IMG/VR virus record: IMGVR_UViG_3300038629_000353 | Coordinates: 1 to 40,134 of that record | Reading direction: 5' to 3' (one strand) | Length of the DNA stretch: 40,134 bases | Source: a virus | In this document: positions 1,571 through 35,496 of the stretch, in pieces | How the letters are laid out: each line of letters starts with the position of its first letter | Numbering within the stretch: position 1 is the first letter of the stretch | The notes under the pieces: model-generated | The model's database searches: none | Seen by the model: only the letters and a program-made list of their open reading frames with translations | Told to the model about the DNA's origin: nothing | Program-made: the position numbers and the translations under genes

Positions 1571-1599
1571 ATTATACCACGTTAGCGCTCCTGTGTCAA
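1571..1599 (-). promoter_or_regulatory. Promoter P1 with embedded 18-bp dyad
   Basis: On the minus strand TTGACA (1594-1599), 17 bp spacer, TATAAT (1571-1576): a perfect sigma70 match. The spacer contains CAC-AGG-AGCGCT-AAC-GTG, matching the dyad found in four other leftward promoters, and likely an operator. It drives 1306-1539 and the genes beyond it. Confidence 0.88.
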
Positions 1600-1607
1600 A
1601 TCCGGTG

Positions 1608-1645
1608 ATTATGTTAAATAGAGGGGTCTCTGTATTATGTTAAAT
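1608..1645 (-). promoter_or_regulatory. Two upstream ATTATGTTAAAT boxes of P1
   Basis: Two exact copies of ATTATGTTAAAT (plus-strand sense) at 1608-1619 and 1634-1645, 26 bp apart, start to start. The nearer lies 8 bp upstream of the -35 of P1. The same box occurs singly at the same place upstream of three other promoters. It is likely an activator or UP-element-like site. Confidence 0.65.
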
Positions 1646-1676
1646 GGGAGATCCCTCACGCGCGCGAGCGCCTGAC

Positions 1677-1710
1677 AATAAAAAGGAACGCGCCCTCGCG
1701 AGCGCGTCCC
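1677..1710 (-). terminator. Rho-independent terminator after 1740-2075
   Basis: On the minus strand GGGACGCGC (1710-1702) pairs with GCGCGTTCC (1693-1685, one G-U), followed by TTTTTATT (1684-1677). It lies 30 bp past the stop of the 111-residue gene and just before P1, so it isolates the two units. Confidence 0.85.
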
Positions 1711-1739
1711 GTGTGTGCGTACGTGCGTACGCGGGTGGA

Positions 1740-2075
1740 TCAGTAGCCGTTGGTCTCGGCCCACCTGATGATGGCGTCACGGTGCCGCTCGGGCACGTCG
1801 TACTCGTCACCCGTGTGATAGTCTTCGAGAGTGCCGAAGCCCATCAGCATGCCGAGTGATCCGCCGAACTCAACGCCGCGCACCGTGCGCGTGACGCTGC
1901 AGTCTGAGCGTGGCTCGCCATCCTCCTCGAATAGCTCCAGCTCAACGTCGTAACCGTAGATGGTTTTCTTCAGGCACTTGTCATCGGTGCCGGTCGAGTT
2001 GCTTGCGTTGCTCATAGCTTGTTGCTCCTTTACTTGGCGTTGCAAAACTTCGTACGCGTAGTCGTTCAGGCTCAT
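1740..2075 (-). CDS. Small acidic protein with two possible starts
   Basis: A 111-residue acidic protein that I do not recognise. The first start (MSLNDYAYEV) has AGGAGCAAGAGGC before it and overlaps the stop of the 40-residue coiled-coil gene. A second in-frame ATG at codon 21 (position 2015) has its own strong site AGGAGCAACAAGCT, which would give a 91-residue form. The leading segment LQRQVKEQQ resembles LQRQVDELKQQLKEQ in the gene just upstream, so the N-terminal 20 residues look like a local duplication. It is the last gene before a terminator. Confidence 0.75.
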   Translation of the reverse strand: MSLNDYAYEVLQRQVKEQQAMSNASNSTGTDDKCLKKTIYGYDVELELFEEDGEPRSDCSVTRTVRGVEFGGSLGMLMGFGTLEDYHTGDEYDVPERHRDAIIRWAETNGY

Positions 2076-2194
2076 GCCTCTTGCTCCTTGAGTTGCTGCT
2101 TAAGTTCATCTACCTGACGTTGCAGGTCATCCATCGCAGCCTTGATGTTGCGCTGGATGTTGTTCAGCTCTTGCTGTTGTTGCGGTGTAAACAT
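2072..2194 (-). CDS. 40-residue coiled-coil peptide
   Basis: A 40-residue gene starting MFTPQQQQELNNI. It is almost entirely a predicted amphipathic helix rich in Gln, Glu and Lys (for example DLQRQVDELKQQLKEQEA), so it probably forms a coiled coil. AGGAGTGTGAA precedes the ATG. The start lies 2 bp past the helicase stop, and the TGA overlaps the ATG of the next gene. It may bind a partner or oligomerise. Function unknown. Confidence 0.68.
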   Translation of the reverse strand: MFTPQQQQELNNIQRNIKAAMDDLQRQVDELKQQLKEQEA

Positions 2195-2195
2195 T

Positions 2196-3680
2196 TCACA
2201 CTCCTACGATTTCAATGGGCAGGTAGACCAGAGTCTCAAGGGCTCGCGTCACTGCGACGTACTGCAGGTTGCGCTCTTGCTCTTGCTGCCATGGCTGCGT
2301 TGCCCAGCGTGATGGCATCAGGTCCGGATTGAGAATGAATACTCGCGGAGCTTCGAGGCCTTTCGCCTTGTGCACCGTTGCGAGTGTCGTGCCTTGTGCG
2401 CTATCGCTGAACATGTCCGTGATGTTATCGGTCAGCTCCTTGATGGTGTCGAGGCCTGCAGCCAGCACGTTGATGCAATCGATCTTGTCCTGTATCGCTG
2501 CGATCTTCGCCTCGTTTTTCGCAGCCTTCTTGATCTGCTTCTGCTGCCATGCATCCAGCTTCGGGCGCAGCTCATCGATGGTGCTGATGCGTTTGCCGCC
2601 TGCCTTCTTGATGACGTTGACCAGACCCTTGCCGATCTCGCGTCCCATCACGTGCACCCTGCGACCCTCGCCGATGCACTTGTATGCAAGCTCGATCAGG
2701 GGTGCGGTGTTGCGACAGACTACGAGGTCATCGTCGCTGAATGATTCGATGTCCCAGCTGGTAGGGTTGAGCACCTCGCCATCTTCGGCAGTGTCGCTGC
2801 ACTCGATGTGCGGTACGAACTGCTTCGCGATCTCGACGATCTTGCGCGGGCACCGGTAGCTGATCGAGAGCGGTAGCTCTTCGGCCTTGAACACTCGACC
2901 GATGTTGTTGAGTGAGTTCGAGTCCGCGCCTCGGAATCCGTAGATGGCTTGGTGACTGTCGCCGACTGCGATGAGCCTGCCGCCAGTCTTAAGGAATTTG
3001 CGCAGCAGCGTGCGTTGCACGTGCGACACATCCTGCGCCTCATCGATGATGACCCAGTCGTATCCCCACGCTGCAAGATCAAGTGCGACCGGCATGTAGA
3101 GCTGATCATCGAAGTCCAGTTTGTTCTGCTCTTCGAGTCCAGCCTTGAGCAGGATGTTAGCCCAAGTGATGAACGTCGCTGCGCCGCAGCCGTTGGGGTC
3201 AACGTCGTACTTATCCATCAGCGTATCCCAGCGCTCGTCAGTGGCCTCGTACGTGCCGCTCGGTATGCGCATGCCCTTGGGGATGAGCCCGTGCGCCTTC
3301 GCCTTGCCGATGATGTTGAGCAGCTCAGGCCTGACCTCGCGCGACTCCTCAGGGAGCAGCCTGTCGATCAGGTCGAATGTCTTGTTGCGGTCAACGGTGA
3401 TGTGCTTGCCGAGACGGTAGCGGCAGACTGCCCAGCCCAGTGCGTTGAGTGTCTTCGACTCGACGTGACCGGGGAGCTTGTTGCCCAGCTCAACTGCGAT
3501 GGCTTTGTTGAATGCGAGGAACACTGCCTTGTGTGCTCGCGGGATCAGCTGCGCAGCCTTGACGATGGTGAAGGTCTTGCCGCTGCCTGCGACTGCTTGA
3601 ACGATCAGCGCGCCTGCGGTGTCGATGTGCGCGGTGACCCAGTCGATGATGGCTTGCTGGAATTTGGAAAGTGTAATCAT
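2196..3680 (-). CDS. UvrD/PcrA-like superfamily 1 DNA helicase
   Basis: A 494-residue SF1A helicase expected to unwind DNA with 3'-5' polarity during phage replication or repair. Visible motifs: Walker A AGSGKT (31-36), Walker B IIDEAQD (211-217), FRGADS (249-254), SYRCP (274-278), ATVHKAKGLE (motif V region) and YVAVTRA (motif VI, near 476). The length is shorter than bacterial UvrD (about 720), which suggests reduced 1B/2B domains as in many phage members. GGAGCACCAAC precedes the start. It has its own promoter (P2) 40 bp upstream and is followed directly by two small genes. Confidence 0.93.
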   Translation of the reverse strand: MITLSKFQQAIIDWVTAHIDTAGALIVQAVAGSGKTFTIVKAAQLIPRAHKAVFLAFNKAIAVELGNKLPGHVESKTLNALGWAVCRYRLGKHITVDRNKTFDLIDRLLPEESREVRPELLNIIGKAKAHGLIPKGMRIPSGTYEATDERWDTLMDKYDVDPNGCGAATFITWANILLKAGLEEQNKLDFDDQLYMPVALDLAAWGYDWVIIDEAQDVSHVQRTLLRKFLKTGGRLIAVGDSHQAIYGFRGADSNSLNNIGRVFKAEELPLSISYRCPRKIVEIAKQFVPHIECSDTAEDGEVLNPTSWDIESFSDDDLVVCRNTAPLIELAYKCIGEGRRVHVMGREIGKGLVNVIKKAGGKRISTIDELRPKLDAWQQKQIKKAAKNEAKIAAIQDKIDCINVLAAGLDTIKELTDNITDMFSDSAQGTTLATVHKAKGLEAPRVFILNPDLMPSRWATQPWQQEQERNLQYVAVTRALETLVYLPIEIVGV

Positions 3681-3721
3681 GTTGGTGCTCCGTAGGTGTC
3701 GCGTTTTATGTAAGATGAGTC

Positions 3722-3750
3722 ATTATAGCACGGCAGCGCTACCGTGTCAA
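3722..3750 (-). promoter_or_regulatory. Promoter P2 with embedded 18-bp dyad
   Basis: Minus strand TTGACA (3745-3750), 17 bp, TATAAT (3722-3727). The spacer dyad CAC-GGT-AGCGCT-GCC-GTG is nearly a perfect palindrome and fills the gap between the hexamers. An ATTATGTTAAATA box lies at 3760-3772. It drives the UvrD-like helicase unit. Confidence 0.9.
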
Positions 3751-3797
3751 GTAGGGTATATTATGTTAAATAGCCTTACTCCATCCTCAGGGCGTGA

Positions 3798-3838
3798 AAT
3801 AAAAAAAGCCCCCGTCACCATCTCTGGATCGGGGGGCT
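3798..3838 (-). terminator. Rho-independent terminator after DUF932-like gene
   Basis: On the minus strand GCCCCC (3837-3832) pairs with GGGGGC (3813-3808), followed by TTTTTTTA. The loop contains GATCC-AGAGATGGTGA, nearly identical to that of the terminator at 4725-4762. It sits 15 bp after the stop of 3853-4602. Confidence 0.88.
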
Positions 3839-3852
3839 GCGGAGCGTTGAGG

Positions 3853-4602
3853 TTACGCGGCTAGTGCGTAGTCACTCGCGGATCCGATCAGGTCGTGCAG
3901 CTTCTGGCTGCGCTCGGTGTAGCTGCTGATCGGGGATCCCTTGAACGCTTCGGTCGCTGCGTTGAACAGCGTCCAGTTGGTACGCTCGCCATCGTCGTTG
4001 AGGAACTCAACATGGCTGGGCTCGTAGTACTCGTCAACGACCTTCTGCACCTTGCTGCTGACGATGATGTCTTTGCGCAGCATCTGGATGATGCAATGGT
4101 TCGCGGTCGCATCCTTCAACTGGGCTTGCTTGTAGCGAGCCACCTGTTCGGCGCGGTCCTGAACAGACTGCTCGAACTGGCCCATGAAGTTACCGACCAG
4201 TGTGCGCAGGTCAGCCATCACCATCGATGTCTGCTTGCGTCGCAGGACTACTGAACCGAAGAGGTCGAGGTTGGTGCAGATCGCGAGGGACTCGCCGCCG
4301 CACAACTGCCAGCTGAGTGACTTGTTGATTGAGCTGCGAACGCCGAAGCAGATCTTGCTCTCGTCACTGGTGAAGTTAACCACCTCGATCAGGCCGAACA
4401 ACTGTGTGTCGTTGCGGGCGAGGACGTACTGCTCTTCGCCGAAGCGGAATCCCTTGGACTCGGCGACATCCTGAATCAGGTCAACGCCAGTAGAGAAAGG
4501 AACGGGCTTGTGCGAGCGGGTGTGCAGTGCGAGTGCGGCAGAATCAAACTTGGTGAGATCCTGTCGGCTTACGGTGTTGTCGTCTTTTGAGAACATTAAC
4601 AT
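3853..4602 (-). CDS. DUF932-like phage/plasmid protein
   Basis: A 249-residue protein resembling the DUF932 (phage/plasmid-like, TIGR03299-type) family, whose function is not settled. Family-like parts are the central beta-rich segment around RFGEEQYVLARND, the segment with CTNLDLFGSVVLRRK, and the C-terminal TNWTLFNAATEAFKG. The start at 4602 has AAGGAGCAAGAAA before it; an upstream ATG at 4641 overlaps the -10 region of P3. It forms a transcription unit of its own, with promoter P3 upstream and a strong terminator downstream, which suggests high or separately timed expression. Confidence 0.7.
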   Translation of the reverse strand: MLMFSKDDNTVSRQDLTKFDSAALALHTRSHKPVPFSTGVDLIQDVAESKGFRFGEEQYVLARNDTQLFGLIEVVNFTSDESKICFGVRSSINKSLSWQLCGGESLAICTNLDLFGSVVLRRKQTSMVMADLRTLVGNFMGQFEQSVQDRAEQVARYKQAQLKDATANHCIIQMLRKDIIVSSKVQKVVDEYYEPSHVEFLNDDGERTNWTLFNAATEAFKGSPISSYTERSQKLHDLIGSASDYALAA

Positions 4603-4643
4603 TTTCTTGCTCCTTGTCGTTGAGGAAATCCCAACTTGCAATC

Positions 4644-4672
4644 ATCGTACCACAGCAGCGCTCCTGTGTCAA
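4644..4672 (-). promoter_or_regulatory. Promoter P3 with embedded 18-bp dyad
   Basis: Minus strand TTGACA (4667-4672), 17 bp, TACGAT (4644-4649). The dyad CAC-AGG-AGCGCT-GCT-GTG fills the spacer. A shortened upstream box (ATTATGTTAAG) lies at 4682-4692. It drives the DUF932-like gene. Confidence 0.85.
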
Positions 4673-4724
4673 GTAAGGTATATTATGTTAAGTCGCCTAT
4701 TTTTATTCGATGGCACAGACGTGC

Positions 4725-4762
4725 AATAAAAAACCCCCATCACCATCTCAGGATCAGGGGGC
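4725..4762 (-). terminator. Rho-independent terminator after 4771-5046
   Basis: On the minus strand CCCCC (4761-4757) pairs with GGGGG (4738-4734), followed by TTTTTTATT. The loop GATCC-TGAGATGGTGA is shared with the terminator at 3798-3838. It lies just past the end of the upstream operon. Confidence 0.85.
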
Positions 4763-4770
4763 CGGAGCAT

Positions 4771-5046
4771 TCAGCTGCACTCACGCGTGGGCGCTAGGCA
4801 GACCGGAGTGACTTTCGTAACTTTCTCAGGCTCTTGCTTTTCGCAGAAGAAGCCATCGATGTTAATTTTCTTACGGGGTGTAAACGGGTTAAGACGTTCA
4901 CCATCTTTCGGCGGATCCATCCACGCAGCCTGCGCGGCGTACCTCGTGCCCACGAACATGCACGACGACCGATCATCGTAAGTTTTCTGCTCAACCATCT
5001 CACCGTTGATCACCAGTACGAGCAGCCAGATTTGTATCGTTTCCAT
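4771..5046 (-). CDS. Small protein with hydrophobic N-terminus and four Cys
   Basis: A 91-residue protein that I do not recognise. The N-terminus METIQIWLLVLVING is hydrophobic and could be a short membrane anchor or signal. Four cysteines lie downstream (near residues 29, 68, 83 and 90), which would fit disulfides if it is exported. TGGAGGCCAACA precedes the ATG. The first 47 bp overlap the end of the upstream gene in another frame. An internal ATG at 4997, just past the upstream stop, is an alternative start. It is the last gene before a terminator. Confidence 0.65.
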   Translation of the reverse strand: METIQIWLLVLVINGEMVEQKTYDDRSSCMFVGTRYAAQAAWMDPPKDGERLNPFTPRKKINIDGFFCEKQEPEKVTKVTPVCLAPTRECS

Positions 5047-5380
5047 TGTTGGCCTCCAGTGCGGCACTCAATAGAGTGCTCGCGATTAGGGCAAGATCGT
5101 TCGGTGCCTGCCTGTCCTGACAGTCGCCGATCACTTCGCCGATTGCCTTGACGTCGTCGCCCTTGGACAGGTCGTACTCTCTGCCGTGTATCCACAGCTT
5201 CCTTGGCTGCTTGTCGTGTTCGCGTGCCAGCTCCATGCCATCGCGGCATCCGAGGTAGTACGCCTTGCGTGCGGAATCTTTAATGAGACCCTCGGTGTTG
5301 TTGGTGACGCGTTCGCACGCTTCATCCACCAGCACGCGTAGGTCATCATGCTTGCGCCTGTTGTTGTCGAGATTACTCAT
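5000..5380 (-). CDS. Small phage protein, unknown function
   Basis: A 126-residue charged protein beginning MSNLDNNRRKHDD that I do not recognise. It looks mainly helical, with a segment KLWIHGREYDLSKGDDVKAIGEVI in the middle (residues about 65-88). GGGAGCACACCTA precedes the ATG, which overlaps the stop of the upstream gene (TAATG). An ATG five codons earlier is poorly spaced to that site. The 3' end overlaps the next gene by 47 bp. No membrane segment or catalytic motif is seen. Confidence 0.7.
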   Translation of the reverse strand: MSNLDNNRRKHDDLRVLVDEACERVTNNTEGLIKDSARKAYYLGCRDGMELAREHDKQPRKLWIHGREYDLSKGDDVKAIGEVIGDCQDRQAPNDLALIASTLLSAALEANNGNDTNLAARTGDQR

Positions 5381-5565
5381 TAGGTGTGCTCCCATTTAAC
5401 TAACGTGTTCGAATGATCAACTTTGAAATCCGCGCTTTCGAGGTTGCCTTCGGCCTCCTCTTTTGCGTCTTCGCATAGCGCGGTCTCGTCGTCGAGGTCT
5501 GCAACGTGATCGATAACAATTTCCTGTACGACCACGGTGCAGACTTGTACCGTCAATTTGTTCAT
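5380..5565 (-). CDS. Small acidic protein, unknown function
   Basis: A 61-residue acidic protein with a beta-like N-terminal half (MNKLTVQVCTVVVQE) and an acidic helical middle. The ATG overlaps the stop of the upstream gene (ATGA) and there is no clear ribosome site of its own, so translation is probably coupled. Its stop overlaps the next start (TAATG). The overlaps at both ends are the main evidence that it is real. Function unknown. Confidence 0.6.
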   Translation of the reverse strand: MNKLTVQVCTVVVQEIVIDHVADLDDETALCEDAKEEAEGNLESADFKVDHSNTLVKWEHT

Positions 5566-5714
5566 CTCGGGTACTGGTTTCGGATGACGTTGAAAGCGAA
5601 GTCGATCTCGCCTTCCTCCTCCGCCTCTTGTAACACTGCAAGGATCCGGTCGATTGATTCGTTGTCAACTTCCTCGTCGCCGGTCGTGACTCTGATTGTG
5701 AGTTCGTTACCCAT
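5562..5714 (-). CDS. 50-residue acidic protein
   Basis: Starting at MGNELTIRVTTG, this gene encodes 50 residues rich in Glu and Asp. GAGGTGCCAGACA precedes this ATG, which is why it is preferred to an ATG ten codons upstream. It overlaps both neighbours by a few bases in the usual chain-like way. The N-terminal beta strand pattern resembles that of the next gene (MNKLTVQV), so the two could be distant duplicates; this is a weak impression. Function unknown. Confidence 0.6.
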   Translation of the reverse strand: MGNELTIRVTTGDEEVDNESIDRILAVLQEAEEEGEIDFAFNVIRNQYPR

Positions 5715-5874
5715 TGTCTGGCACCTCGATGTCGGCCTTGACATCCTTCAGGTACTGGATGCAGGTCGTCACGCTGGGACGATACTGGTCTGTCAGTCGT
5801 GGCAGCAGAATCGTAAACTCAGCGATGCAGGCGTCCAGCTTCTGGACATTGGTCGGTTCGGTTTTTGTGCTCAT
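5707..5874 (-). CDS. 55-residue protein, unknown function
   Basis: Starting MSTKTEPTNVQK, this gene encodes 55 residues, probably two short helices. GAAGGAGCAAAAGTA precedes the ATG, which overlaps the stop of the upstream gene (TAATG). A longer frame upstream to 5946 lies inside the neighbouring gene and has no ribosome site. Its last codons overlap the next start. Function unknown. Confidence 0.62.
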   Translation of the reverse strand: MSTKTEPTNVQKLDACIAEFTILLPRLTDQYRPSVTTCIQYLKDVKADIEVPDNG

Positions 5875-6125
5875 TACTTTTGCTCCTTCAACTCGGGAAC
5901 TTCGTCCCGGACTTTTGCCGCGTCGCGCATCGATGACTTGATCCACTCGCGACCGTACTGGTGATGAAATTCCTTCTTGAATTTATCGACAGGAACTCCG
6001 AATGCGTCGAAGACGATTATCTCGCCAAGGTTCTCACTTTCGCCATAGGTGATGACGATGCGCATCTGATACTGGTAGCCAACTACGCGACCGTTCAGAA
6101 ACATTTCAGTGTCGTACTTACTCAT
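5874..6125 (-). CDS. First gene after the structured leader; unknown function
   Basis: An 83-residue protein, MSKYDTEMFLNGRVV to KEQK, with a beta-rich first half and a helical basic C-terminal half. AGGAGCAAGAGC precedes the ATG at 6125, which fixes the start; an upstream in-frame ATG at 6200 lies inside the folded leader. It is the first gene after the candidate structured RNA at 6149-6320, so if that RNA is regulatory this gene and the five smaller genes after it are the targets. I do not recognise the family. Confidence 0.7.
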   Translation of the reverse strand: MSKYDTEMFLNGRVVGYQYQMRIVITYGESENLGEIIVFDAFGVPVDKFKKEFHHQYGREWIKSSMRDAAKVRDEVPELKEQK

Positions 6126-6148
6126 GCTCTTGCTCCTTTGCGTTTGAA

Positions 6149-6320
6149 CACTTTGTGAATCGGTGGGATCAACGGTACCTGTTGGTCCTACCCCGGTCAT
6201 CAGTCCGCAGTGCCTACCCAGTTAGGGTCATGGGCTCCGCTTCTCTCGCGGGATCAACGGCAGGGTCTCTGTAACAGTCAAGAAACGGAAACGAAACCTA
6301 CCCCACCGATTCACAAAATG
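6149..6320 (-). ncRNA. Candidate structured leader RNA (unknown class)
   Basis: On the minus strand the RNA from 6320 to 6149 is closed by a 19-bp stem with a single G-U pair (6302-6320 with 6149-6167). Inside are further possible hairpins: CCGC-loop-GCGG, GCC..ACCC-UAACU-GGGU..GGC, and GGACC-AACA-GGU(A)CC. The motif CCGUUGAUCC occurs twice and GGGUAGG three times. The -10 of P5 predicts a transcript start about 3 nt before the stem, and the ribosome site of 5874-6125 begins about 10 nt after it. I cannot match it to a known riboswitch or ribozyme. Confidence 0.6.
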
Positions 6321-6329
6321 CTCACCTCT

Positions 6330-6358
6330 AGAATTGCACATCAGCGTTCCTGTGTCAA
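6330..6358 (-). promoter_or_regulatory. Promoter P5 with embedded dyad
   Basis: Minus strand TTGACA (6353-6358), 17 bp, AATTCT (6330-6335) with an extended TG just before it. The spacer dyad CAC-AGG-AACGCT-GAT-GTG has one change in the core. It overlaps the 3' end of the gene at 6341-6523 and has no ATTATGTTAAAT box. The -10 is weak. Confidence 0.6.
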
Positions 6359-6523
6359 GCTCTTTCGACGCCTGCAGGTGTGCCAGTCTTCGACGTACAC
6401 CCTGTCTTCGATCTGGATGTGCACGCGCGCCAGTATCGTCTTGACTACTGTGCCGCTGAGCCTGCCAGCACCACGTTCGATGCTGACAGTGTCACCGGGC
6501 TTGAACGGGTTGACGCTGCTCAC
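6341..6523 (-). CDS. Small SH3/KOW-like protein
   Basis: A 60-residue protein beginning at a GTG (MSSVNPFKPGDTV). The pattern PGDTVSIERG..GTVVKTILARVHIQIED looks like a small SH3 or KOW-type beta barrel, as found in many nucleic-acid-binding proteins. AGAGGAGCTAGC precedes the start, which overlaps the upstream stop. The last codons (LTQER and stop) coincide with the -35 and spacer of promoter P5, so coding sequence and promoter share bases. The function is inferred from fold pattern only. Confidence 0.68.
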   Translation of the reverse strand: MSSVNPFKPGDTVSIERGAGRLSGTVVKTILARVHIQIEDRVYVEDWHTCRRRKSLTQER

Positions 6524-6786
6524 GCTAGCTCCTCTCGTGCACGCTGCACGTAGCTATAGTGGTCGCTGGTACCGAAGCCCTCATCCTCTGGGAAGTCTTC
6601 GAGATCGCAGCAGATCCAGTACAGCGTGTCGGCTATCTTGTTGTCGTGGATGTCCACCTCCAACACTCGCGCGACGGTCGCCATGACGTTGCGCACGAGC
6701 AGGGTGGTGTTGAACTTGTTGCGCGTGTAGTCGCTCAGGTCGGCGTGGAAATCTGCGAGCGTGTTCGCTGCGGTCATGATGCTCAT
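6520..6786 (-). CDS. Small phage protein, unknown function
   Basis: An 88-residue protein starting MSIMTAANTLADFHADL, mostly helical and acidic toward the end. GGAGGAACTCGC precedes the ATG; the start overlaps the stop of the upstream gene and the stop overlaps the next GTG. The segment LYWICCDLEDFPEDEGFG (residues about 55-72) has adjacent cysteines and an acidic loop. I do not recognise the family and see no catalytic motif. Confidence 0.7.
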   Translation of the reverse strand: MSIMTAANTLADFHADLSDYTRNKFNTTLLVRNVMATVARVLEVDIHDNKIADTLYWICCDLEDFPEDEGFGTSDHYSYVQRAREELA

Positions 6787-7079
6787 GCGAGTTCCTCCCC
6801 ATCAACCGACGTCACGTTGTAGACGTTGTGCATCTGGTACTCGACCCGGTCACCGTGTGACATGCCTTCGAGGCCGAACGGATCATTGGCGAGTGATGCT
6901 CTGACCTTGTCACCGTCAACCTTGATGACCTTGGTCCAGATGCGTTCGCCTCCACCGTCGAGTATGCAGATCTTCGCGTACACTCCGGGCTTGACGACTT
7001 CGCGTAGGTGGTCGATGTCAGCGACCTCGAATGTATCCGGATGCTGTACTGCCATCCCTTGTGCGCTTTCGATTCTCAT
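6783..7079 (-). CDS. DUF2314-like small protein
   Basis: A 98-residue protein whose middle, PGVYAKICILDGGGERIWTK followed by VDGDKVRASLANDP and HGDRVEYQ, resembles the DUF2314 domain (GERFWVxV...DG...G.L.N.P...GD.V pattern). The function of that domain is not established. CAGGAGCAACTGTA precedes the ATG, which overlaps the stop of the upstream gene. It is in the middle of the operon driven by P4. The family call is from pattern memory only. Confidence 0.62.
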   Translation of the reverse strand: MRIESAQGMAVQHPDTFEVADIDHLREVVKPGVYAKICILDGGGERIWTKVIKVDGDKVRASLANDPFGLEGMSHGDRVEYQMHNVYNVTSVDGEELA

Positions 7080-7339
7080 TACAGTTGCTCCTGATAATTT
7101 TTGAGATTCAGCTCCAGCTGCTTGATGTTGAGACCGTTGATCTCGAACACCTCTTCGCAGTGAATCATGGCGGAGCCAAGTCGGGGAATCACGTACTGGT
7201 CGAGTGACCAGCCGTGGTCATCAACACCGACGATGATCGTGCCGGTGTTGTCAAGCGTGCGACCCAGTACCTTAAAGTTGTTCGGCAGGTACTGGGCAAC
7301 ACTCTTGGATTTGCCAGTGGCAGCTATTGCGATTCTCAC
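7079..7339 (-). CDS. Small phage protein, unknown function
   Basis: An 86-residue protein beginning at a GTG (MRIAIAATGKSKSV). The first strand followed by a glycine loop hints at an alpha/beta fold, and IIVGVDDHGW lies near residues 35-44. GAGGAGTAGCC precedes the start, which overlaps the upstream stop (GTGA). The C-terminal part is a polar helix (LNIKQLELNLKNYQEQ). I do not recognise the family. The ATGA-type overlaps place it in the P4 operon. Confidence 0.68.
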   Translation of the reverse strand: MRIAIAATGKSKSVAQYLPNNFKVLGRTLDNTGTIIVGVDDHGWSLDQYVIPRLGSAMIHCEEVFEINGLNIKQLELNLKNYQEQL

Positions 7340-7638
7340 GCGGCTACTCCTCGGCGGGCGTTAACACGGATAGCGATGACTTCCTTCTCCGTGGTGTGCG
7401 ACGTGACCAGCTGACGGCTGGGCTTCAGCTTCGCAGCTACTGCCTTCCAGTTGATGGTCGTGCGCAGGGACTCTACAACTACTGCGCGGAAGGTGTCACC
7501 CTCCATCGCAGTAATGCCAGCTTCGATGAACGACTCGCGAATGTCAGACTCGCGATCCTTCAGGTCAGCTATCTGTGCGCGGAGGAAGCCAAGTTCGTCG
7601 GCCAGTCCGGGCAGGTCTCTCTTTGCTACTTTACTCAT
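7336..7638 (-). CDS. Coiled-coil phage protein, first gene of P4 operon
   Basis: A 100-residue protein, MSKVAKRDLPGL to RRGVAA. An N-terminal coiled coil (ELGFLRAQIADLKDRESDIR, residues about 14-33) is followed by a small beta-rich domain (GITAMEGDTFRAVVVES, then KPSRQLVTSHTTEKEV). Proteins with this layout are common in phages, but I know no proven function. AGGAGCACGACC fixes the start at 7638; a longer frame to 7707 runs through promoter P4. It is the first gene after P4, about 40 bp from the -10. Confidence 0.72.
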   Translation of the reverse strand: MSKVAKRDLPGLADELGFLRAQIADLKDRESDIRESFIEAGITAMEGDTFRAVVVESLRTTINWKAVAAKLKPSRQLVTSHTTEKEVIAIRVNARRGVAA

Positions 7639-7678
7639 GGTCGTGCTCCTTTCTTCTGCGTATCGTGAATTCACATTC

Positions 7679-7707
7679 ACTATACACGGGAGCGCAGCCG
7701 TTGTCAA
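7679..7707 (-). promoter_or_regulatory. Promoter P4 with embedded dyad
   Basis: Minus strand TTGACA (7702-7707), 17 bp, TATAGT (7679-7684). The spacer holds AAC-GGC-TGCGCT-CCC-GTG, a diverged form of the shared dyad. An ATTATGTCAAATA box lies at 7717-7729. No terminator is seen between this promoter and the primase-polymerase gene upstream. Confidence 0.85.
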
Positions 7708-18727: not shown

Positions 18728-18755
18728 TATACACACAAGCGGAAGTGTGTATACT
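18728..18755 (+). promoter_or_regulatory. Palindromic promoter/operator P6
   Basis: A perfect 9-bp inverted repeat, TATACACAC-8-GTGTGTATA (18728-18753). It contains CAC-ACA-AGCGGA-AGT-GTG, close to the dyad of P1-P5, placed between TATACA (18728-18733) and TATACT (18750-18755) with a 16-bp spacer. It lies in a 64-bp gap between genes. A hairpin role in RNA is the alternative. Confidence 0.6.
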
Positions 18756-18787: not shown

Positions 18788-18967
18788 ATGGCAATGCAAG
18801 CTCACAGCGACAGCGTTGGCGCACAGATGGCAATGATGCGCAAGCGAGGCTGGAAAAAATGTGCGAACCCGGAATGCAAGAAGCGTTTCGAGGGTCTCAC
18901 CATCACCACATACTGCTCGGACGAGTGTCGTTTCCGGGCAGCTTATCTGCGACGCAAAGGAAAATAA
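18788..18967 (+). CDS. 59-residue zinc-finger protein
   Basis: A 59-residue protein starting MAMQAHSDSVGAQM. Its second half has CANPEC (25-30) and YCSDEC (42-47), a C-x4-C...C-x3-C pattern of the zinc-ribbon/FCS type, flanked by basic residues (RKRGWKK and RRKGK). It may bind DNA or RNA. GGAGGTAGTCCGC precedes the ATG. It is the first gene after the palindromic promoter P6, so it could be a regulator made from that promoter. This is inference. Confidence 0.72.
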   Translation: MAMQAHSDSVGAQMAMMRKRGWKKCANPECKKRFEGLTITTYCSDECRFRAAYLRRKGK

Positions 18968-18970
18968 AAC

Positions 18971-19207
18971 ATGGCGTTTTTAAAACAGCACCGTAAGGCA
19001 GAGCTGCAACTCGAAGGGCGAAAGCTCATCGGTAAGTTTGCCGTGAGCCTGACCAACTCGGGTGACCGCGAGGTAATCCTTGAGTTCATCAATGAGATGC
19101 GCAAGCAGCTCCGCGAGTTCGATCCCAATAAGGGGAAGAAGAAGACAGGCGCGAAGCGACGTACCAAGAAGAAAGCTAAGCGCAAGGTCATCAAGAGACG
19201 CAGGTGA
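18971..19207 (+). CDS. Small protein with very basic C-terminal tail
   Basis: A 78-residue protein. Residues 1-48 form a helical domain (GRKLIGKFAVSLTNSGDREV), and residues about 53-78 are almost all Lys/Arg (KKKTGAKRRTKKKAKRK), which points to nucleic-acid binding. AAAGGAAAATAAAAC precedes the ATG, 3 bp after the zinc-finger gene stop. Similar basic tails occur on the Sak4-like and SSB-like proteins in this operon. Function unknown. Confidence 0.72.
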   Translation: MAFLKQHRKAELQLEGRKLIGKFAVSLTNSGDREVILEFINEMRKQLREFDPNKGKKKTGAKRRTKKKAKRKVIKRRR

Positions 19208-19668
19208 TCATGGTCGATCTAGAGGGCACGCTAAGCGATCACACTGAGCGCTTAGCAACCCTTCTGGAGAACGAAGAGAAGTACCGGAAGCGTGACCGTA
19301 CTGCGTGGAAGACCTACTACGCAGGACTCATTGACGATCCGCCACGCTCACACATCATGGAGCTGGTGCGCGAGTACATCTCGGAAGACATTCGTCCCCT
19401 CATCTACAGCACTCGCTTCATCAACAAGTACAAGCATGAAGAGCAGTGGCTGAGGCTGCACGGACTGTGGGATGAGGTCGATCTCTTGCAACGCGAACCC
19501 CACATGACCAAGATCAAGGGACCTGATCTCGTCACCCAGTGGGTGCGTCAGTACGAGCCGTTACTCCTCGTTGATGACCGGGACGAGGTGCGTGAGTTGG
19601 TGCGTAAACTGCCGGGAAGCTGCGTTGCTTACGCACCCGAAGCGTTCATCAACTTGGAGGGAGTATGA
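19204..19668 (+). CDS. HAD-type phosphatase (PNKP 3'-phosphatase-like)
   Basis: A 154-residue HAD-superfamily protein resembling the 3'-phosphatase half of T4 polynucleotide kinase and its stand-alone phage relatives. Motif I is VDLEGTL (Asp5, Glu7), motif II YSTR (Ser69-Arg71), a Lys near 103-105, and motif IV LLVDDRDE (Asp124, Asp125). The second motif I acid is Glu, where DxD is usual. It could repair 3'-phosphate ends. The start is a GTG overlapping the previous stop (GTGA); an ATG at 19210 with AGGTG before it is an equal candidate. Confidence 0.78.
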   Translation: MIMVDLEGTLSDHTERLATLLENEEKYRKRDRTAWKTYYAGLIDDPPRSHIMELVREYISEDIRPLIYSTRFINKYKHEEQWLRLHGLWDEVDLLQREPHMTKIKGPDLVTQWVRQYEPLLLVDDRDEVRELVRKLPGSCVAYAPEAFINLEGV

Positions 19669-30562: not shown

Positions 30563-32106
30563 GACTCAACCCTGCCGTCGGCTGGCTCGATGTGAGCGTA
30601 GGTCTTACCCAGTTCGAAGTTGCCTCCGCCTGTGTTCGACTCGAACTTGAAGCTCATTAGCCGCCGGATGTCTTTAAATTTAACAGTTTCTTCGTCACTA
30701 CTCGACGGAGTCTCAAATATGGTCTGCGGATCTGAGGTCACGACGGGAGCTTTCGCGTTCGCACGACCCTTCACCTCCACGGTCATGTCACCTGCCTGAA
30801 CGAAGTCAGGTTCGATCCGTGCAATACGCAGAGACTTGTTCGATATGTTCTGGTCGAGCAACGAGAACTCATGCGTTTCGTAGAATGAACGCACTGCACT
30901 GATGTTGCTCAGGCGGATCTTGTCGAACGCCACTTCGTGCTGCCAGAGTGTGCGACCGTTTGCCGTCTCAAAGTTATCGACCATGAAGGGACGCTCGTAC
31001 ACGTCGGCGTAGATGCCTGCGCAGCGTCCTTGATTGAGGTCATCGTTATCAGGCAGCGGTGTGTCGAACCAGTAACCTTCGCGCACGTTGTAAACGATTG
31101 CATGCGTGCACTCGGTCGCACTGCCTCTTGGGTAACACCACCACAGCTCACCGTAGCGTGGGATCTTCATGCCGAAACATTTCTGCCGTGCACTGAAGTT
31201 GATGTTGTCGAAGAACCAGTTCTGATTCATGTTGTTTGGAATCTCTCGCACGACACCGTTGAACATGTACCACCGATCCACTCCGGGCCAGTAATAAATG
31301 CCGTCCATCTCAACGACGCCTTGAGAACTCATGATGGTTGTGCCACGAGCAATAATGTCGTACGCGAAGGCGGGAGTGCTACCTGTCGAAGTGGCACGGA
31401 TGACTGAGTCGAGACCCCAGAACAATGCAGCGGGACCGTTACCCGATCCGCGAAGAGGCATGCCCTTCACGATCTTCTGCGTGCCAATGTTGATAGCAAC
31501 AGGTGCCACAGAAAGATTGTTGGCTTGCGACTGGAGGATGAGTCCGTCACTGCCAAAGGTCCAAATGTACACACCGCTGACCACGAGGCCTCCACTGACA
31601 GGACCCTCAGCACCACCATTCCAATCCGCATGGAGTCCCGTCGTGTTAAGCACGGTGGAAGCTTCGATGGAATCGAGGTACAGAGTTCCCGCTATGGAGT
31701 TGTCGATGTTCGCAGCGTTCGGCGGAGCGAGTGCCATCAGCACGTGGTTACCGGTGCCGCTGGTGTCAGCAAAGATGTCGAACTGCCACAGGTTGTCGAG
31801 GTTTGCCGCGAAGCCTGCCGGTGTCCGATCATTAAACGTGTTCAGTGATCCTTGTGACACTTGGTACTGGCCGAGAGTGTTCGGGTGACCAAGGTGCAGG
31901 TACTGAATGTTGTCAGAAGAAAACGAATGCATACCGCGTGTAATTTCAGGCACGGTGTCGGTGACCTGCTGATAGCCGCCAATCTTTTTCGGTTTGCCAC
32001 GCTGGAACCTGCACCACTGACCATCGAGGTAGTGCTCGCTATCGAAACGCGTCCCGTCCCGTTTAATACCGGGGGCAGACGCTAGCAATGCGGGTTGTTC
32101 AGGCAA
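30559..32106 (-). CDS. Beta-propeller-like tail/stabilisation protein
   Basis: A 515-residue beta-rich protein. The opening SAPGIKRDGTRFDSEHYLDG followed by WCRFQRGKPKKIGGYQ, and repeated W/Y-x-x-F/W blades, resemble phage tail or head-closure beta-propeller proteins (P22 gp10-like packaged-DNA stabilisation type); this is a fold-level guess. The start chosen is a TTG at 32106 because GGAGGAATATC sits exactly before it; a GTG at 32130 is in frame but has no site. Its start overlaps the previous stop by 8 bp. It lies among fibre and internal proteins, as expected for a tail part. Confidence 0.68.
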   Translation of the reverse strand: MPEQPALLASAPGIKRDGTRFDSEHYLDGQWCRFQRGKPKKIGGYQQVTDTVPEITRGMHSFSSDNIQYLHLGHPNTLGQYQVSQGSLNTFNDRTPAGFAANLDNLWQFDIFADTSGTGNHVLMALAPPNAANIDNSIAGTLYLDSIEASTVLNTTGLHADWNGGAEGPVSGGLVVSGVYIWTFGSDGLILQSQANNLSVAPVAINIGTQKIVKGMPLRGSGNGPAALFWGLDSVIRATSTGSTPAFAYDIIARGTTIMSSQGVVEMDGIYYWPGVDRWYMFNGVVREIPNNMNQNWFFDNINFSARQKCFGMKIPRYGELWWCYPRGSATECTHAIVYNVREGYWFDTPLPDNDDLNQGRCAGIYADVYERPFMVDNFETANGRTLWQHEVAFDKIRLSNISAVRSFYETHEFSLLDQNISNKSLRIARIEPDFVQAGDMTVEVKGRANAKAPVVTSDPQTIFETPSSSDEETVKFKDIRRLMSFKFESNTGGGNFELGKTYAHIEPADGRVES

Positions 32107-32476: not shown

Positions 32477-34842
32477 TATGTATCTGTCCGAGTGAATCGT
32501 AGCCAGCTGTTTTCAGCAAACGATGTCGTACCTGTGGCGACGACCTGAGCCCACTGAGTAGTCAGAGTGATTGGGCTTGTAATAATCTCGCAGTTGCCAT
32601 TGAGCCAACCAACACCTTCTCCAGTGTTGAGTGATGTAATCAATGCTCCAGTTGATCCATCTAGGGTAGTAAAGTATGTGTCCGCATTCGATGGGCTTGT
32701 TCCAGTGTTCGCCCGGTAAGTAAACGTGTAGGGAGCACCTGCAAACGAGCCTCCGGTATCGGTCCAACGGAATTTGAAACCAGCTGAAGCGTTAGTGACT
32801 CCATACTGGAAAAATCCGGAAAGCCCCCAACGACCTACAGCTAATACAATGTTGATCAGGTGGTTGTCGTTCTGGTACGTGGTTGAAGCAACGACATTTT
32901 CATTCGCTGTCTTCACAGCTTGCACAACTGAAGGACTATCGCTGACTGTTAGGACACGTTCGAAGCCTCCACCAGTCAACGTGTTGTTGACCTCGAAGCC
33001 ACCATTAGCTAGTGATGCACTGCGTGCAATCTCACCATCACCTTTCCAGAACAGATGACAACCTGTGTTTGGATTCATCTCCAACATCGAGACGGTAGCG
33101 GTGATGCTATCCTCGCCTTGGAAGGTAATAGTCTGTTGTGCCAGATTCTCAAAGATGAGTTCATCGCTGCCGCCATAGCCAATGGATGCGCGGTTTGCGT
33201 AAGCCGTAGTCGTCAATTGAATGCTTGCGTTGTTATTGGCACTACCACGAACTTGAAGGCCAGACAGAATACGAAGCCTATTGCCTATCAAAATCTCTGC
33301 ACTGGCATGGTTGGTGAAGATCTCGATGGTGCCATCTGCATGGTTGATCGAGTTGGTGATGAACATCTCTTGCGAGAAGGAGTTCCAACCGATGTAACCG
33401 ACGACCGTCTCATCCTGCCACGTGAATTGCAGCCGACGAGGTACTGAGTCCGAGTCACCAACACTGCGTAGCTGTACGTTACTGCTACCAGCAGCAAATA
33501 CTGCAATGTTGCCACCGCTATCGACCAAGCTATCAGGTGAAGGCACCACGTCCTCGATGAGGAACTTACGCATCGCGCCTGCGTCTGCATCCCAGATACC
33601 AACAAAGTCTGCTGCAGTATCGATGACCGTCTCTGCTGTCAGGTTATCGACGTCCAACAAGAGCTGCATATTAGCTGTGAGATCACCACCACCGGCTAGA
33701 CCGGAGAGTGCTTGCGTCTCAATCAAGATGCCGTCGAACGCAGCATTCAAATTCGTACGTGCGCCCGATGCTGTCGTCGCACTCGTACCACCCTGACCGA
33801 TGGTGATCGGGAATGCCACACTGGTAGATGACGTCGCGTTGATTACGTCAGTGCCATCGCAATAAACAATTACGCTCTGCCCTTGTGGGATGGTTATTCC
33901 TGCGCCTGCTGCAGTGACGACCTCCAATGAGAAAGCTCCACTCGTCTGATTATCTGCCCAGTACTGCTGCGTCGTATTGGGTACAACGATGCGTCGGTTA
34001 CCCGTCAGTGCGCCCGTGAATCGATACGAGATCCTGTCGAGGTTTGCACCAGAGAGTACGAAGTCACCAGAGCCCGGTACCGCAAGCGACACGAAGTCGA
34101 ACGCAATGGTCGAGCCGGAGCTAAGCCCGATGGTGTAATAGTCGGTGCCATCCGTGAAGAAGAATGCACTGTCGTTTGGATCGAGGTTAATACTTGCGCC
34201 ACCATCGATCTGACCAGACGGAGGCAACACATTGAGCGTGCCACTACCAGAGTTACGGATCATGCAGAACCAGTTGTTGAAAACTGTTCCTGCTGACGGC
34301 AAGTTCGCGGTACCTGCACCTGCCGTGTAGATCAAGCACTTCGCTCGATCACCGTCAACCACATCAAAAGGTGTCGCAGCTTCTTCATCGGAGTCGATGA
34401 TCTGTTCGAGCAGACCAAAAGCAGCAGCCTGCAAACCTGAACCAGCTAACGCAGCAGCAGACGCCAGTGTTGTGGCTGCTCCCAGTTGAAAGCCCGACCA
34501 TATGCCAGCCTCGGTCGAGTTATCAGTCAGTACGATGACCCACTGCGTGCCGTTCGTTGCGAACTGGATGACACCACCCGTAGCATCACGCAACGTGAAG
34601 TCATCACCTATCGCACTGATGGTTGTCTTGTTGCCTGTGCTCACAGAACGAGCGTCAGGCATGTCGATGTTGAGACCGAGTACCGAAGCATTAATGTCGA
34701 GGAAGTCTGCTACAACATCGTTCCCTTCAATTTGCTGCTCACGCGGCCAGACAAGTTGGACGTCAATAGCCGTTGTGATTTCGAGGTAGCTCGTCTGCGA
34801 GGGGAAGATCAACTCTCCACCAAATACGTTTGTGTAACCCAT
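32476..34842 (-). CDS. Tail fibre / receptor-binding protein
   Basis: A 788-residue beta-rich protein. The N-terminal part (GELIFPSQTSYLEITTAIDV) resembles the start of many phage fibres, followed by Gly/Ser/Thr-rich repeats. GQGGTSATTASGARTNLNAA (about residues 350-369) is the common phage fibre motif (GGTGATTAAGARTNL). The C-terminal half has no recognisable chaperone or hydrolase and probably binds the receptor. AGGGAGAACGTCTG precedes the ATG, which overlaps the upstream stop. It is the longer of two fibre-like genes in the window. Confidence 0.85.
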   Translation of the reverse strand: MGYTNVFGGELIFPSQTSYLEITTAIDVQLVWPREQQIEGNDVVADFLDINASVLGLNIDMPDARSVSTGNKTTISAIGDDFTLRDATGGVIQFATNGTQWVIVLTDNSTEAGIWSGFQLGAATTLASAAALAGSGLQAAAFGLLEQIIDSDEEAATPFDVVDGDRAKCLIYTAGAGTANLPSAGTVFNNWFCMIRNSGSGTLNVLPPSGQIDGGASINLDPNDSAFFFTDGTDYYTIGLSSGSTIAFDFVSLAVPGSGDFVLSGANLDRISYRFTGALTGNRRIVVPNTTQQYWADNQTSGAFSLEVVTAAGAGITIPQGQSVIVYCDGTDVINATSSTSVAFPITIGQGGTSATTASGARTNLNAAFDGILIETQALSGLAGGGDLTANMQLLLDVDNLTAETVIDTAADFVGIWDADAGAMRKFLIEDVVPSPDSLVDSGGNIAVFAAGSSNVQLRSVGDSDSVPRRLQFTWQDETVVGYIGWNSFSQEMFITNSINHADGTIEIFTNHASAEILIGNRLRILSGLQVRGSANNNASIQLTTTAYANRASIGYGGSDELIFENLAQQTITFQGEDSITATVSMLEMNPNTGCHLFWKGDGEIARSASLANGGFEVNNTLTGGGFERVLTVSDSPSVVQAVKTANENVVASTTYQNDNHLINIVLAVGRWGLSGFFQYGVTNASAGFKFRWTDTGGSFAGAPYTFTYRANTGTSPSNADTYFTTLDGSTGALITSLNTGEGVGWLNGNCEIITSPITLTTQWAQVVATGTTSFAENSWLRFTRTDT

Positions 34843-35486
34843 CAGACGTTCTCCCTCGTAACGTTCCTATCGATGATGCGTTTCATGTCTTGCCCTTCAA
34901 GAATCGCAACGTCCTTTTCGTAAATCGCTTCCCACGTTGCGATGCGTTCGTCGTTCTTTAAAAATGGAGTTGCCTGCAGGAGCGCGCCATGAAGTAGGGC
35001 GTTCGGGGCAAAGTCCGACGACCAATTCGTTTGGTTGACGCTATCCAGTAGCGCAGGCAACTCCCAGTAATTGACCTCGAATGGATATGCGAAGTCAGCT
35101 GTCGGAGCGATCAGCCAGTTGAAGTAATCGTAGTCAGCGTAGAACTTCGGCTGAGCAGTCAAATCTTCATCCGGCCAATAGCGCCGACAGTACTCGTAGC
35201 TTCGGGCAAACAAGGGGGTGCGTACCTGTGTTGCGCCCACACCGAAGTTGATGCTGATAGTGTCACGCCAGCGATCAGGCTTAGGTATTACCGATTGTCC
35301 AACACCTAACGTGTCTGTGACCACAGTCACGAAGCCGAGGATCTTCAACCGGTTTGCCAACTCACGCTCAGCCAGATTAATAAGGCTGGGCAGTTGGTCG
35401 AATACGGTTGGATCGACAGCTGTGCCTCGCTCCAGATAGGCCCGAAGGTCTGCCTGTAGTGAGTCGAATGTCATCGAGACCGGCAT
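34842..35486 (-). CDS. Head-tail adaptor-like protein
   Basis: A 214-residue protein similar to podovirus adaptor proteins (P22 gp4/SU10-like). Features: SLQADLRAYLERG at the start, LPSLINLAERELANRL (helix), and the segment YEYCRRYWPDEDLTAQPKFY followed by DYDYFNWLIAPT and YPFEVNYW, which I recall from this family. It would link portal and tail. AGGAGTAGCTA precedes the ATG. Its place between lysis genes and a fibre, without a portal gene nearby, means the head genes are outside the window. Confidence 0.65.
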   Translation of the reverse strand: MPVSMTFDSLQADLRAYLERGTAVDPTVFDQLPSLINLAERELANRLKILGFVTVVTDTLGVGQSVIPKPDRWRDTISINFGVGATQVRTPLFARSYEYCRRYWPDEDLTAQPKFYADYDYFNWLIAPTADFAYPFEVNYWELPALLDSVNQTNWSSDFAPNALLHGALLQATPFLKNDERIATWEAIYEKDVAILEGQDMKRIIDRNVTRENV

Positions 35487-35496
35487 TAGCTACTCC

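Follow-up and report, generated by a model that had tools for sequence, protein, structure and literature searches.

In anti-CRISPR operons, repressors of the Aca type bind to an inverted repeat that lies inside the core promoter, and an early burst of expression is followed by shut-off (PMC9410906). In the early regulon of the archaeal SIRV2, to which Aca8 belongs, one regulatory sequence stands before many small early genes (PMC11065993). In plasmid p576, the establishment regulon governed by Reg has shared operators at several promoters, and its variable accessory genes are expressed rapidly and transiently once the plasmid has entered (PMC8708921), and the Phi29 proteins p4 and p6 bind near early promoters and turn several of them off jointly (PMC3100819). 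Here, we describe a stretch of viral DNA of 40,134 nucleotides (IMG/VR record IMGVR_UViG_3300038629_000353; hereafter the window), in which several early promoters share a dyad that probably serves as an operator.

As in the Aca systems, strong sigma-70 phage promoters carry an inverted repeat inside their core, both in the window and in its relatives; a small repressor is bound to it in Aca, and is only proposed here. Aca proteins are HTH proteins and usually serve a single acr-aca operon, whereas five to nine promoters share one putative operator in the present case. The HTH repressor of Aca is encoded in the operon that it controls, and its place could be taken here by a zinc-ribbon gene behind a sixth promoter, P6; no HTH gene was recognized by Pfam among the small ORFs scanned, a subset of all ORFs. 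The window fits the Aca plan and is a possible member of the group. The likeness to SIRV2 and Aca8 is that the motif is always found at the gene for the putative repressor, as it is at gene 18788 here, and that the early genes are small and mostly without known function; the promoter elements of SIRV2, in contrast, are archaeal and its protein is a predicted wHTH one, and there is no sequence relation to this system. As in p576, variable accessory genes have the same operator-like dyad at several of their early promoters. Reg, however, belongs to the ribbon-helix-helix proteins and its operators lie at the flanks of the promoter, whereas the dyad lies over the promoter here. In Phi29, early and late promoters are paired and p4 and p6 bend the DNA across them, whereas each of the window promoters has one small dyad. 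The literature searched contains no description of this dyad: the operator plan is already known from the Aca systems, and the operator sequence and its regulator are undescribed there.

The dyad and the early transcription units

The five leftward promoters of the initial annotation, each consisting of TTGACA, a 17-bp spacer and a -10 element, were all recovered on the minus strand at unchanged coordinates. P1 (1571-1599) and P2 (3722-3750) both read TTGACA-N17-TATAAT and carry exact dyads at 1578-1595 and 3729-3746, and P3 (4644-4672; TTGACA-N17-TACGAT) carries a third exact dyad at 4651-4668. The dyad is diverged, as had been described, at P4 (7679-7707; TTGACA-N17-TATAGT), where it has two mismatches (7685-7702) and is placed 1 bp further downstream than in the other window promoters, and at P5 (6330-6358; TTGACA-N17-AATTCT, a poor -10), where it has one (6337-6354). 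P2 drives a UvrD-like helicase gene (2196-3680), P3 drives gene 3853-4602, the product of which weakly matches DUF932, P4 drives gene 7336-7638, and P5 precedes a structured RNA. Orthologues of the P1 promoter are found in G015, in G016 and in a contig from a MAG.

The ten arms of the five promoters yield the half-site CACRGNAGC as an inverted pair, the full 18-letter dyad being CACRGNAGCGCTNCYGTG. The three-base segments of the arms had been taken as free; in fact they take part in the half-site, positions 4 and 15 having R/Y symmetry. This half-site contains neither CTGT-N8-ACAG nor GTTC-N7-GTTC, in agreement with the earlier statement that it is not a LexA box. Its placement inside the spacer needs amendment: it lies between the hexamers, but its outer CA is also the end of TTGACA and its outer TG is, in four of the five promoters (P1, P2, P3 and P5), the TGn of an extended -10. 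Since these outer bases belong partly to the -35 end and the extended -10, only the inner RG-N-AGC needs another cause; by the same overlap, the dyad covers the core promoter and not the spacer alone. Three exact dyads in the window compare with a single one in 300 Markov-1 windows matched to it in length and nearest-neighbour composition (0.003 per window). Compared pairwise, the five 13-bp spacer cores give 69 agreements, where the best of 200,000 random sets gave 62. The loose form of the pattern, with three mismatches allowed, was found 21 times in the window against 24 expected; being at chance level, this count was left out of the evidence. A long promoter pattern matched nothing in the window, since it fixed bases that vary.

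A second element, the box ATTTAACATAAT, precedes TTGACA by 8-9 bp at four of the five window promoters, singly or in tandem. It is present on the minus strand in two copies at P1 (1608-1619 and 1634-1645), in one at P2 (3760-3771), as ACTTAACATAAT at P3 (4682-4693) and as ATTTGACATAAT at P4 (7717-7728), and is missing from P5. This box may be an UP-like element or an activator site. Pairs of the box and TTGACA that occur elsewhere in viral contigs, mostly AT-rich ones, have no dyad, and these served as a control for the scoring.

On the same strand, an intrinsic terminator lies just upstream of the P1 unit (1685-1710), and terminator-like hairpins followed by a T-run lie between gene 3853-4602 and P2 (3800-3840) and upstream of P3 (4726-4763). 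Because P1, P2 and P3 directly follow these hairpins, they appear to head separate promoter-operator-gene-terminator units. The first genes behind dyad promoters differ between relatives. The P5 transcript contains a conserved structured RNA (6144-6318, minus strand), which is 147-175 nt long in seven genomes, namely the window, G001, G005, G015, G017, G018 and G020. Its core is strongly conserved, its long closing stem shows compensatory changes in four of the pairs, and it contains two GTTGATCCC repeats; it precedes a different gene in G017, G018 and G020. It has no match in Rfam, and is possibly a new RNA family.

The regulon had been regarded as a leftward one. Its five leftward promoters do share the dyad, but the putative regulon is not limited to them and extends to a rightward promoter, P6 (18728-18755, plus strand; TATACA-N16-TATACT). 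The related dyad of P6, CACACAAGCGGAAGTGTG at 18732-18749, has a variant right arm within a spacer of 16 bp. A dyad matching at least 12 of 16 positions is present upstream of the orthologues of gene 18788 in all 21 of 21 cases, as against 4.3% of random stretches. The operon behind P6 encodes, on the plus strand, a 59-aa zinc-ribbon protein (18788-18967) and a 78-aa protein with a basic tail (18971-19207). A further gene of this operon (19204-19668, plus strand) encodes a protein that matches the PNKP phosphatase domain (Pfam E 3e-6).

Conservation of the dyad among relatives

Relatives were found in IMG/VR through the primase, helicase, DUF932-like and zinc-ribbon proteins, and were joined by one contig in a MAG labelled Acidithiobacillales; G-numbers refer to genomes or viral records and L-numbers to loci. 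In a motif-blind test, orthologues were selected solely on protein homology and the 160 bp before each were examined: a dyad matching at least 13 of 16 positions was found before 11 of 14 orthologues of gene 7336, 6 of 11 of gene 2196 and 5 of 8 of gene 3853, compared with 1.6% of random stretches. The dyad is confined to these promoters: in the replication and structural arms, no gene has an upstream dyad at the same threshold, except 17694 with 3 of 25, and these matches, about 140 bp before the gene, probably fall inside the preceding gene. The records of four more distant relatives, G010, G011, G013 and G014 (primase 43-45% identical), contain no dyad at all when up to one mismatch is allowed. 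Among 50,697 records of isolated phages, neither the P2 promoter region nor the zinc-ribbon protein has a match. A profile of 66 sites is symmetric, with a purine at position 4 mirrored by a pyrimidine at position 15 and with positions 6 and 13 free; these sites were picked partly by score, which biases the heights of the profile and its symmetry less so.

The sequence around the dyad is far from constant. Consensus hexamers, presented in the initial annotation as a common feature, are not what the relatives have in common; in these, the -35 next to the dyad is TTGACA, TTTACA or TTGCAA; G445 has nine early promoters with the dyad, and their -35s are TACATA in several cases or TTTACA. The annotation had named, as evidence against a regulatory dyad, relatives that keep the hexamers and lose the dyad, and the opposite is seen: the -35 differs among the relatives and the dyad, which is independent of the -35 type, is retained. 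Three promoters in G016, G017 and G018 have the dyad 4 bp further upstream with the hexamers still 17 bp apart, a distance also left intact by the 1-bp downstream shift at P4. The dyad is conserved even between orthologues with 41-46% protein identity. Being kept while the promoter context is rebuilt, it is best read as a protein-binding site.

The upstream element is exchanged as well. The box ATTTAACATAAT is kept in close relatives, and a CACTTACAAA-like sequence takes its place in G445 and G452. In G019, two promoters without a good -35 have TGTGA-N6-TCACA, a site expected 0.04 times in the contig, with the same dyad behind it. CRP-like TGTGA-N6-TCAC sites adjoin dyads at 31927, 33856-33871 and 35472-35487 of this contig (L077). 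By our count, the centre of the site in two promoters is at about -41.5 from the start site, which is the position of class II CRP sites. CRP activation of early phage promoters in G019 is possible, and a lineage-specific upstream element, be it ATTTAACATAAT, CACTTACAAA or a CRP-like site, probably helps to activate these promoters.

Similar dyads are also found outside this lineage. Near-identical promoter dyads occur in contigs of apparently unrelated phages: the promoter at 1013-1030 of L097 is identical to P2 (TTGACACGGTAGCGCTGCCGTGCTATAAT), L092 has another such dyad, and that of L090 is a perfect palindrome. The L097 contig carries PurZ-like, MazG-like and HD-phosphohydrolase ORFs, and possibly comes from a 2-aminoadenine phage. 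C103 (G021), a structurally unrelated second phage contig of the same MAG, has six upstream boxes together with weaker dyads near its end (L140/L141, 20585-20839). Directly behind one C103 dyad lies a wHTH-like ORF of 90 aa (L138, 1316-1588, minus strand), which was rejected as the regulator of the present lineage as it has no relative there.

Candidate regulators and other readings of the dyad

Where would the regulator be encoded? The initial annotation, seeing no repressor gene, had looked outside the window or in the host. A candidate gene does lie in the window, and no host regulon came to light in the genomes searched; a phage-encoded regulator is more likely than a host one. Genes 7079, 7336, 18788, 18971 and 19204 occur in the dyad-bearing relatives examined and are absent from those without the dyad, several of the contigs being incomplete. 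The last three all sit behind P6. The products of this operon are the leading candidates, with the zinc-ribbon protein in front and the basic-tail protein second. Four cysteines of the zinc ribbon are invariant and its helices are basic, and there is a weak match to the zinc finger of an HNH family; no relative with proven DNA binding was found. For both proteins, searches by Pfam, PHROGs, PDB sequence, AlphaFold2 and Foldseek gave no informative relative, and their AlphaFold2 models were poor and of low confidence. Neither a ribbon-helix-helix protein (by Pfam) nor a LacI-type gene was recognized among the ORFs scanned. Contig G019, which is perhaps incomplete, has dyads and lacks all the candidate genes. 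That the zinc ribbon represents a new, non-HTH class of repressor, controlling itself and the early promoters while the upstream element is freely exchanged, is a doubtful proposal at present.

A host dimeric repressor is also conceivable, if somewhat improbable; phages would carry its operator and thereby couple early expression to the state of the host. The sharing of the dyad by L097, L092 and L090 would suit such a regulator, as would the box and weaker dyads of C103 in the same MAG. The even palindrome with its AGCGCT core and central CG presumably resembles LacI-type operators, a likeness that serves as a lead only. However, among 57 genomes of the order of the MAG, CACNGNAGCGCTNCNGTG occurs solely in the phage contig and in one chance match, and among 369 of its class the promoter-linked form is restricted to the phage contig. 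No host regulon was found in these two sets, with the host assignment resting on one binned contig. The nearly fixed register of the dyad between the hexamers in most promoters, and the poor -35s of some G445 promoters (TACATA), might instead point to activation, either by a MerR-like or other dimeric activator bound between the hexamers or by a host polymerase or special sigma factor that reads the dyad. This is unlikely: MerR-type activation requires a spacer of 19-20 bp and those found here span 16-18 bp, the position of the dyad with respect to the hexamers changes by 4 and 1 bp, and the perfect hexamers of P1 and P2 need no help.

The box, spacing, leader length and terminators common to the promoters make copying of a cassette likely, and the dyads might resemble one another merely as the trace of a recent duplication; yet positions 6 and 13 and the immediate flanks vary while the dyad stays, and its retention between such diverged orthologues and across promoter rebuilding makes a dyad devoid of its own function very unlikely. 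An inverted repeat in early promoters also recalls the hairpins that are read in single-stranded form, such as those of the N4 virion polymerase or of plasmid ssDNA promoters. N4-type hairpin promoters have a stem with a short loop and no sigma-70 hexamers, whereas the palindrome here is loopless and lies between normal sigma-70 hexamers, and the CGCG/GCGC region at its centre belongs to the best conserved positions, so that this reading is scarcely credible.

A proposed operator of the early genes

We consider it likely that the dyad is an operator, on which a homodimeric protein bound to the inverted half-sites blocks RNA polymerase at the early promoters. The annotation had proposed one dimeric regulator, probably a repressor; a symmetric dyad conserved over several early promoters is in keeping with this proposal, in which binding is inferred and repression is deduced from the overlap with the core. 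In each of its registers the dyad lies over part of the core promoter, so that the simplest action would be to exclude polymerase. The homodimer would recognize the two CACRGNAGC half-sites over the core promoter, from the -35 end to the extended -10. On entry of the phage, the promoters would be free and the early genes strongly transcribed by the host polymerase; as the regulator builds up, the early promoters and P6 at 18728 would be turned down jointly. If the regulator is a product of the operon behind P6, it would regulate its own synthesis. This timing, like the identity of the regulator, is an inference.

An early regulon of an uncultured phage lineage can in this way be defined from sequence alone. 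If the proposal for the zinc ribbon is true, this repressor would control up to nine early promoters in relatives. With the putative operator retained, the upstream element has been exchanged, a CRP-like site standing in for a phage-specific box, and this would be an unusually clear case of modular promoter evolution. The dyad also provides a handle of 16 positions for finding the small, mosaic early genes under its control, which perhaps function in host takeover or anti-defence, as the archaeal precedent suggests.
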